Both the position numbers and the translations under genes were made by a program. A stretch of 64,000 nucleotides of DNA from Cyclobacteriaceae bacterium (lineage in GTDB: Bacteria; Bacteroidota; Bacteroidia; Cytophagales; Cyclobacteriaceae): contig JAEUUF010000026.1 of NCBI GenBank assembly GCA_016787645.1, positions 372,001 to 436,000 of the forward strand, in the 5' to 3' direction. The notes under the pieces were generated by a model, which saw only the letters and a list, made by a program, of their open reading frames with translations, did not search any database and was not told where the DNA came from. Below, in pieces: positions 10,481 to 11,216 of this stretch (its first letter is position 1; each line of letters begins with the position of its first letter).

Positions 10481-10520
10481 ATCTGCCCCATCTTGATGTT
10501 CCAAATTGGAACATCAAGAT
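10481..10520. repeat. ORF6N cassette flanking repeat, downstream copy
   Basis: The 38 bases 10481-10518 repeat at 11177-11214 with three mismatches, in the same orientation. Each copy contains a dyad: half-site CTTGATGTTCC, a 5-base AT centre, then GGAACATCAAG. Here the dyad extends to 31 bases (10490-10520) with outer arms ATC/GAT. It lies 27 bases beyond the stop of the ORF6N gene. The dyad is not followed by a T-run, so it is not a standard terminator. Confidence 0.9.
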
Positions 10521-10547
10521 TCAATGAGTTCATCTGGACTCGGGCAT

Positions 10548-11090
10548 TCATTTCAACAAAAGCATCTCTCTCCCACGTTGCCTAAACCCAATCTTACGCA
10601 TTGGCTGACGTGAAGGACTGAACATTTCTTTCATGTATTCAAAGATGGCCTGTATTTGCTCATCATGTTTACCCACTTTTTTCTCTAACCGTTCCAATTG
10701 AAGCAGGATGTCTTTGTGATCAAGCATGAATTGTCTGAGGCGGGTAAAAACACGGATGATATGAATATTGACCTGAATAGCCCGTTCACTTCGCAAGACA
10801 CTTGAAAGCATGGCTATACCTTGCTCTGTGAACGCATACGGCAATTTTCGTGTACCACCCCATCTTGATGTTCCAAATTGGAACATCAAGTTCTTGGCCT
10901 CGGCCGGCTTCAGTCGAAACATGAAGTCCGGCGGAAAACGGCGATAGTTTCGCAGAACCGCTTTGTTGAGGTCCCGGGTGGCTACGTTGTACAACTGCGC
11001 GAGGTCCCTGTCCAACATGACTTTGACCCCACGAACAAGATGGATTCTTGAAACCAGGGTTTCGTCAGTAAGTTTGATACGTTTATTCAT
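10548..11090 (-). CDS. ORF6N domain DNA-binding protein
   Basis: Member of the ORF6N family (Pfam PF10543), found in phages and scattered through Bacteroidota chromosomes and thought to bind DNA. From ATG 11090 it has 180 residues: the ORF6N domain covers about 8-95 (LVSRIHLVRGVKVMLDRDLAQLY, split here as IHLVRGVKVMLD and LAQLYNV; then RFPPDFMFRL and KLPYAFTEQGIAMLSSVL), followed by a helical segment with a short coiled coil (about 115-150) and a basic tail. Residues 67-79 (NLMFQFGTSRWGG) are encoded by a palindrome that also flanks the gene on both sides. No phage genes are nearby. The frame is open upstream into the flanking repeat, but the ATG at 11090 matches the family start. Confidence 0.92.
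   Translation of the reverse strand: MNKRIKLTDETLVSRIHLVRGVKVMLDRDLAQLYNVATRDLNKAVLRNYRRFPPDFMFRLKPAEAKNLMFQFGTSRWGGTRKLPYAFTEQGIAMLSSVLRSERAIQVNIHIIRVFTRLRQFMLDHKDILLQLERLEKKVGKHDEQIQAIFEYMKEMFSPSRQPMRKIGFRQRGREMLLLK
10858..10890. repeat. third copy of the palindrome, inside the ORF6N coding sequence
   Basis: 33 bases identical to 10486-10518 of the downstream flanking repeat. The dyad core is 27 bases (10864-10890). Read on the minus strand it encodes residues 67-79 of the ORF6N protein, including Q71, G73, T74, S75 and W77. The outermost arms are not symmetric here, unlike in the two flanking copies, presumably because coding need constrains them. Confidence 0.9.
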
Positions 11091-11176
11091 GCCCCAACCT
11101 ATCACCTTCAGGGCAATTGAGAAATCTGGTTTTCCGGACAATCTTGGGAACCGTGGCAGTCTCCCATAGTGACTAA

Positions 11177-11216
11177 ATCTGCTCCAACTTGATGTTCCAA
11201 TTTGGAACATCAAGTT
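11177..11216. repeat. ORF6N cassette flanking repeat, upstream copy
   Basis: Direct repeat of 10481-10518 (35 of 38 bases identical). The dyad spans 31 bases (11186-11216). Its outer arms read AAC/GTT instead of ATC/GAT: both sides changed together, so symmetry is kept. It lies about 90 bases upstream of the ORF6N start codon, where it could act as an operator. Confidence 0.9.

Follow-up and report, generated by a model that had tools for sequence, protein, structure and literature searches.

The window analysed here, a stretch of 64,000 nucleotides from a Cyclobacteriaceae bacterium, carries on its minus strand a gene for a 180-aa ORF6N protein (10548..11090), identified from the ORF list, a PF10543 match and an orthologue in genome G232 that is 80% identical. 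The Pfam scan was done with the ORF at 10548-11213, which includes an extension ahead of the likely ATG (11088-11090; its Met is residue 1 throughout); ORF6N scored 104.8 bits against a gathering cut-off of 27.8 (E 2.9e-30), and no other domain in this ORF exceeded its cut-off. As a first-pass annotation of this DNA had reported, two 38-bp direct repeats (10481-10518 and 11177-11214) bracket the gene, and sequence comparison confirmed that they are identical at 35/38 positions. The 31-bp near-perfect dyad that the annotation had placed in each repeat is in fact perfect, with 15-bp arms around one central base. The upstream palindrome (11186..11216, centre 11201) overlaps the repeat at 11177-11214 and lies 111 bp ahead of the ORF6N ATG, between the ExoIII gene and the ORF6N gene, and the downstream palindrome (10490..10520, centre 10505) overlaps the repeat at 10481-10518 and lies 27 bp beyond the ORF6N stop codon. 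The annotation had found nothing else between the repeats than the ORF6N gene; the gene is there, but a third palindrome (10864..10890, 13-bp arms, centre 10877) had been overlooked within it, in the codons of residues 67-76. The arms of both flanking palindromes are identical to this in-gene copy of the 27-bp palindrome, CTTGATGTTCCAA-W-TTGGAACATCAAG, and the presence of a copy inside the coding sequence changes the interpretation of the repeats. A promoter scan limited to sigma-70 types recognised no promoter at the window dyads, and no terminator was found at them, the dyads being without a T-run.

Allowing up to three mismatches, the 27-mer has three matches in the 4.0-Mb genome (28 contigs), all at the window locus, whereas the reversed control pattern has 0 in the same genome; the window palindromes are thus not due to chance. 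A dyad model and a 21-bp version of the palindrome returned the same three places, and the 15-bp core with one mismatch gave one extra place, on another contig. The genome contains one ORF6N match. Among 59 sampled genomes of the genus, G232 is the closest by ExoIII (85% identical), and its ORF6N orthologue occupies the same murA-ExoIII site with the same in-gene palindrome; flanking copies are absent from that site. The first-pass annotation had regarded orthologues without the repeats as telling against its proposal: the flanking repeats are indeed missing in G232, but the palindrome itself is present. It had likewise named a repeat found widely without ORF6N genes, which is mostly not what we observed, because a dyad-model match (E 0.01 or better) occurs in 48/51 ORF6N-bearing and 14/145 ORF6N-lacking genomes sampled from the window's taxonomic family, within which the presence of ORF6N is patchy (51/196 genomes). 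We inspected 17 dyad-model places, some of them in ORF6N-bearing genomes: three adjoin ORF6N pieces (L173, L176 and L177), four resemble terminators by eye (L165, L174, L175 and L178) and one (L171) has no dyad by dyad score. At L176 (G078), a decayed ORF6N remnant is accompanied by its palindrome, and at L164 (G128), which has the same neighbour gene, a lone palindrome stands at a locus with no detectable ORF6N remnant, as if the palindrome outlives the gene.

The in-gene palindrome was then sought in three samples, comprising 98 ORF6N loci from the window's taxonomic family and phylum, 80 loci from titled genomes (Bacteroidota, Omnitrophota, Nitrospirota, Verrucomicrobia, Acidobacteria, proteobacterial and other groups) and 42 viral contigs; the titled-genome loci are the best 80 of 585 and are therefore biased toward close relatives of the query. 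Most sampled ORF6N genes carry the dyad at one place, between the FMFQLT..E and LPYAFTEQG motifs. A loop dyad of at least 11/13 pairs was present in 172/219 testable genes (73/96 from the family and phylum, 72/85 from titled genomes and 27/38 viral), compared with ∼1.3 expected from 300 reshuffles of synonymous codons per gene that leave the proteins the same, and the loop formed 11.5 pairs compared with 7.5 under this synonymous null. In a control stretch of the same genes, from VMLD to the loop, 0/206 had a cored dyad of at least 11/13-pair strength. Among 50 distinct dyads, 94.7% of 600 cells were paired, compared with 24-42% for slid versions, and 131 cells had changed on both sides, compared with 32.9 ± 5.0 in shuffles. 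The loop peptide is fairly constant (LRSQxxTSS). In 16/207 genes, however, the dyad lies in another reading frame, for example with ELVTNCDRF replacing LRSQFVTSS, and the reading of the same palindrome in a second frame indicates that the DNA is conserved and not the peptide alone. Overall, most sampled ORF6N genes contain a symmetric site within their own coding sequence that is conserved beyond coding need.

Across the 220 loci, cored dyads with 11 pairs or more numbered 200 within ORF6N ORFs (143 kb) and 43 outside them (807 kb), 38 of the 43 no more than 250 bp from an ORF6N ORF, all counts being for neighbourhoods of ORF6N genes only. KilA-N loci, which served as negative control and as alternative carriers, yielded 1 cored dyad in 23 loci, and the in-gene site looks specific to ORF6N in this comparison. 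Strong dyads (at least 11/13 pairs, core CA...TG) on both sides of the gene were found in 3/206 genes, for some of which the flanks are incomplete; these are the window gene, L201 and L053, of which the window gene alone has copies that are all identical. The flanking palindromes are thus the exception and the in-gene palindrome is the constant feature of the ORF6N family, whose genes are also present in viral contigs, phage records and plasmids. By eye, tandem palindromes, in frame and in the same loop, apparently occur in L110, L113, L021/L049, L029, L057 and L085, those in L085 being of both reading-frame kinds. There is also a long ORF6N form of ∼290-300 aa (L065, L103 and other ORFs) with an extra C-terminal domain, in which an HDRFLII motif resembles phospholipase-D-type proteins by eye.

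We scanned 115 protein columns outside the loop against 10 dyad positions for covariation. The five highest scores all came from three residues (39, 40 and 43) of one predicted helix, residues 38-47 (10950..10979, minus strand; 39-48 in the protein model, whose numbering begins one residue earlier and whose pLDDT of 71 denotes moderate confidence). Residues 43 and 40 scored highest against ±4 (z 17.6 and 12.6, respectively), followed by residues 43 and 40 against ±5 (z 9.0 and 7.9) and residue 39 against ±7 (z 7.1); lower scores were obtained for residue 44 against ±4 (5.1), residue 39 against ±8 (3.0) and the remaining listed pairs (at most 2.0). Apart from 2 genes that have Leu at residue 43 and those that have a gap there (8 and 2), Gln43 goes with A.T at ±4 in 75/76 genes, Glu43 with G.C in 50/53, Arg43 with C.G in 30/32 and Lys43 with C.G in 20/20, and the second-reading-frame genes gave 9/9 for Gln43 with A.T and 5/5 for Glu43 with G.C. 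Further, Lys43 goes with T.A at ±5 in 20/20 genes and Lys39 with G.C at ±7 in 97/97. Outside the helix, residue 81, which is encoded just beyond the dyad, tracks ±10 (Arg with G.C, 122/123; Lys with A.T, 31/32), and residue 82 tracks ±8 (Tyr with G.C, 77/82); we propose that residues 77-82 (WGGTRK in the window protein; 10845..10862, minus strand) form a wing. Side chains have known base preferences, Gln for A, Glu for C, and Arg and Lys for G, and the observed residue-base table follows these textbook preferences. The window protein has R39, D40, K43, W77, R81 and K82, and all three window dyads show the predicted bases. As judged from these alignments, residue letters and dyad bases appear to be related by a near-exact code that can be read from genomes, and the predicted specificity of an ORF6N protein matches the site in its own gene. 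A sequence search of the PDB gave no convincing relatives (best E 0.32).

As a control for relatedness, we compared non-overlapping closest pairs of genes that are 50 to 97% identical over background columns, a design in which independence from the tree is incomplete. Of 84 pairs with unlike residue-43 classes, 83 have different bases at ±4 and 81 agree with the code in both members, whereas in 88 pairs of the same class the ±4 base differs in 3. Similarly, the partner base differs in 33/35 pairs for residue 81, in 35/36 for residue 82 and in 62/83 for residue 39 (Lys versus other), which is only half informative because either base can accompany residues other than Lys. In the main frame, the left-arm bases at ±4, ±7 and ±10 are third codon positions, and synonymous codons follow the distant residues. 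The Ser70 codon is TCA with Gln43 in 78/79 genes and TCG with Glu43 in 50/51; the Arg69 codon is AGG with Lys39 in 75/75 and AGA with other residues in 16/24; the Lys69 codon is AAG with Lys39 in 15/15 and AAA with other residues in 19/21; and the Leu68 codon is TTG with Arg81 in 114/114 and TTA with Lys81 in 19/19 (genes with gaps or other residues are excluded, and the p-values of these counts ignore relatedness). In the second frame, the Cys codon is TGT with Gln43 in 9/9 genes and TGC with Glu43 in 5/5. These silent changes in the loop track residues at a distance of 27 to 30 codons (13 in the case of residue 81), which suggests that the protein reads the DNA. Computation by itself shows the palindromes, a conservation of them that exceeds coding need, and the code linking protein to DNA.

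The code was fixed beforehand and then applied to 60 unused ORF6N loci of the same phylum, which gave 61 genes; these include several near-copies of one another and some from previously sampled genomes, and no protein identical to one used in training. An in-gene dyad with 11 pairs or more was found in 53/61 genes, and 6/61 had no dyad of at least 10 pairs. After exclusion of these 6 genes, 3 with a gap and 1 with Leu, residue 43 predicted at least one half of the dyad in 51/51 genes and both halves in 47/51, so that on the strict count the 95% expectation set beforehand was missed. Three of the 4 misses are Arg43 genes that fit one half only, 4 Arg43 genes having been scored. In the left arm, predictions held for Lys39 in 32/32 genes, for residue 81 in 45/45 and for residue 82 in 38/38.

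Recombination at the palindrome was considered as well and rejected: the identities of N- and C-terminal halves looked discordant between homologues, but in 14/15 gene pairs selected by an LLR above 12 and by more than 72% identity on one side (the pairs share genes), the breakpoint that separates the unlike halves falls 3' of the dyad. Eight of these 14 breakpoints are 90-120 bp from the dyad centre, in the conserved FTEQG core, and the breakpoint in one pair, L017/L083, reflects a frameshift in L083. Weaker gene pairs had breakpoints on either side of the dyad. Homologues that differ by swaps of the C-terminal half thus keep the dyad together with the N-terminal half.

Taken together, the conserved loop dyad, the residue code and the tracking by silent codons suggest that the ORF6N protein most likely binds the palindrome of its own gene. 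We consider it probable, on the strength of these sequence comparisons, that ORF6N is a symmetric binder of this palindrome and that it most likely holds down its own transcription. In this model, a symmetric, probably dimeric ORF6N protein would bind a palindrome in its own coding sequence, in the segment that encodes the loop of its DNA-binding half; helix 38-47 would read the inner bases (R39 at ±7, D40 at ±4, K43 at ±5/±4) and residues 77-82 the outer bases. The bound protein would block polymerase inside the gene and, in the window, also upstream of it, where looping between sites 324 and 372 bp apart would be possible and the upstream and downstream copies perhaps strengthen autoregulation. 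Physical binding, the dimer, repression and looping are what we infer. Because the gene itself is the only good target in the window's genome, negative autoregulation is the simplest consequence of self-binding and its likeliest purpose, and because a second upstream site is missing in most relatives (32/203 have one), repression would usually be exerted from inside the gene. An autoregulated unit was already among the readings of the first-pass annotation; the predicted specificity fits all three palindromes, as that reading would have it, but the main site is the in-gene copy and not the borders. When the gene moves or exchanges its C-terminal half, the site would travel with the N-terminal half, and its location there would keep protein and target matched in any new place.

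A broader claim, to which we give slightly less than an even chance, is that ORF6N is a self-addressed family in bacteria and phages, in which a stretch of the DNA that encodes the DNA-binding half doubles as the site bound by the protein, a simple recognition code keeps the two matched and the gene itself is the main or only target. If so, ORF6N would be a unit of self-recognition, for self-restraint or self-exclusion, and not a regulator of other genes. For a widespread but sparsely studied family annotated as a presumed DNA binder, the analysis yields a candidate DNA site, candidate reading residues and a code that predicts the sites of new members from their sequence, and it makes the role of stand-alone ORF6N genes directly testable. 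Third codon positions that follow the putative binding preference of the encoded protein are a clear instance of natural double coding, and the ∼200 protein-site pairs found in nature, both partners of each pair residing on a single DNA segment, offer a ready test bed for protein-DNA recognition.

Other explanations of the palindromes were weighed against this self-binding. The first-pass annotation had suggested, as one of two possibilities, that the identical ends mark a mobile one-gene element; in the form considered here, the protein or a helper would move the gene, with the palindromes as ends or targets and solo palindromes as footprints. The patchy presence of ORF6N (51/196 genomes), the clustering of external dyads at gene ends (38/43 within 250 bp), the decayed copy (L176) and solo dyad (L164) at one locus and the ordered run of three or four dyads at two loci are all in line with movement, but a mobile cassette defined by the repeats is not supported, and we regard this reading as unlikely: G232 has the gene with its in-gene dyad and no flanking copies, the conserved site is inside the gene and not at its ends, the genome contains no more than 3 copies of the palindrome, Pfam placed no transposase or nuclease domain above its cut-off, an unsystematic look found no element boundary or target duplication, and such breakpoints as were found between homologues represent exchanges inside the gene. 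Self-recognition could also serve an end other than autorepression, namely immunity to newly arriving copies of the gene, akin to the immunity that phage repressors confer, or silencing, or partition of the carrier element. The lack of another good target in the window's genome, the occurrence of ORF6N genes in viral contigs, phage records and plasmids and the diversity of ORF6N specificities would suit such a role; selection for orthogonality is not seen among paralogues, however, whose dyad arms are not more different within a genome than between genomes (mean similarity 0.574 for 21 pairs versus 0.541), and we hold these purposes to be quite improbable.

Strong two-sided covariation is also what an mRNA stem acting in attenuation, stability or translation control would produce through RNA pairing, but, contrary to such pairing, 172 distinct dyads contain no excess of G-T mismatches (41) over A-C mismatches (65), and for want of this G-U tolerance a structured RNA element is disfavoured. 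Moreover, helix residues predict individual bases, which pairing alone does not explain, dyads of this kind are also found ahead of genes or past them, and the window dyads have no T-run terminator; we consider a hairpin very unlikely. That the palindrome is functionless, a side effect of constraint on the protein or of mutation that corrects palindromes, we find scarcely credible, although the loop peptide is fairly constant and template switching can perfect palindromes. The synonymous null yields 7.5 pairs compared with the 11.5 observed, some genes read the palindrome in a second frame, Ser70 is TCA/TCG in 78/1 genes with Gln43 and 1/50 with Glu43, and Arg69 is AGG/AGA in 75/0 genes with Lys39 and 8/16 with other residues. 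Protein constraint alone is refuted by synonymous codons that track helix residues, and template switching alone would not give third positions that follow residues 27-30 codons away.

The putative self-binding by ORF6N has relatives among known systems. The Bro-network regulators, with ORF6N, KilA-N and Bro-N domains, are called domain-swapping in PMC10111431, which lists ORF6N as one of the Bro-network domains. Like them, the window protein carries an ORF6N domain by Pfam, and ORF6N genes recombine their N- and C-terminal parts and are found in viral contigs and plasmids; the in-gene DNA site, by contrast, looks specific to ORF6N, with 1 cored dyad in 23 KilA-N loci. The lac and gal operons provide autorepressors and operators inside genes, and both the symmetric operator within coding sequence and, in the window, several sites hundreds of bp apart are shared features; the ORF6N site differs in its place, which is the sequence encoding the DNA-binding half of the regulator itself, in its occurrence in the majority of family members sampled, in its covariation with the protein and in that no further good target is seen in the window's genome. 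Rickettsia palindromic elements are palindromic DNA inside the reading frames of many unrelated genes. The ORF6N palindrome is likewise kept inside a reading frame, but within the ORF6N neighbourhoods examined it belongs to one family and one position and matches the encoded protein, and the count of 200 dyads in ORF6N ORFs versus 43 outside, in these same neighbourhoods, led us to reject an element of this type. RAYT genes flanked by REP palindromes are thought to move, and the window gene is similarly bracketed by short palindromes; it has no transposase domain by Pfam, however, and there are 3 copies in 4.0 Mb, none dispersed, so that the locus was rejected as a REP/RAYT element, and the main ORF6N palindrome is inside the gene. 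ORF6N would be of a known kind, a self-binding regulator with an operator inside a gene, whereas the self-addressed gene architecture itself may be new and, to our knowledge, has not been described. Literature searches, mostly outside subscription papers, turned up no DNA site for ORF6N, and those on KilA-N/Bro-N palindromes and on autoregulation by intragenic operators listed nothing on an in-gene ORF6N site. REP palindromes are treated in PMC3733652, and ORF6N is an annotation of phage genes in PMC6591296, where palindrome terms concern CRISPR.

Dyads outside the gene concern a minority of ORF6N genes. Upstream dyads were present in 32/203 genes, 24/37 of such dyads lying 98-143 bp before the VMLD codons, and downstream dyads in 12/199, 12/17 of them 13-60 bp past the stop. 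The code of the neighbouring gene is fitted by 23/42 upstream dyads (null 16.3, p 0.022) and by 10/18 downstream dyads (null 5.9, p 0.036); the non-fitting ones (19/42 and 8/18, respectively) may be relics or sites of other proteins. On average, upstream dyads also resemble the in-gene dyad of their own gene (similarity 0.671 versus 0.578, p 0.0008), but as copies of it they account for a minority of genes only, and for downstream dyads the likeness gave p 0.053. Among genes that lack a good loop dyad, seven have one or more dyads upstream, the nearest of which fits residue 43 in 7/7, whereas L275, also without a good loop dyad, has a sole external dyad that is downstream and does not fit. At 11 pairs, an upstream dyad accompanies 7/23 genes without and 25/180 with an in-gene dyad, a weak association (Fisher p 0.047) that shifts with the threshold (0.14 at 10 pairs, 0.022 at 12). 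At two loci, three or four different dyads recur in a fixed order ahead of ORF6N or KilA-N-like genes, represented by L053 and L170 and by L070 and L025; the L170 gene, with its upstream array, was named KilA-N-like by eye. In L053 (G138) and L170 (G038), the array consists of four different palindromes just upstream, including a second type, AACTTTTCCAAAGTT...AACTTTGGAAAAGTT, and here as in L077 (G187) the ORF6N or KilA-N-like gene stands between hsdM- and hsdS-like genes in surroundings that by eye resemble type I restriction-modification loci. Finally, L093 (1132-1255, downstream) and L213 (3035-3179) have runs of four palindromes directly after the stop codon, the arms of which differ and only some of which fit the gene's own code.
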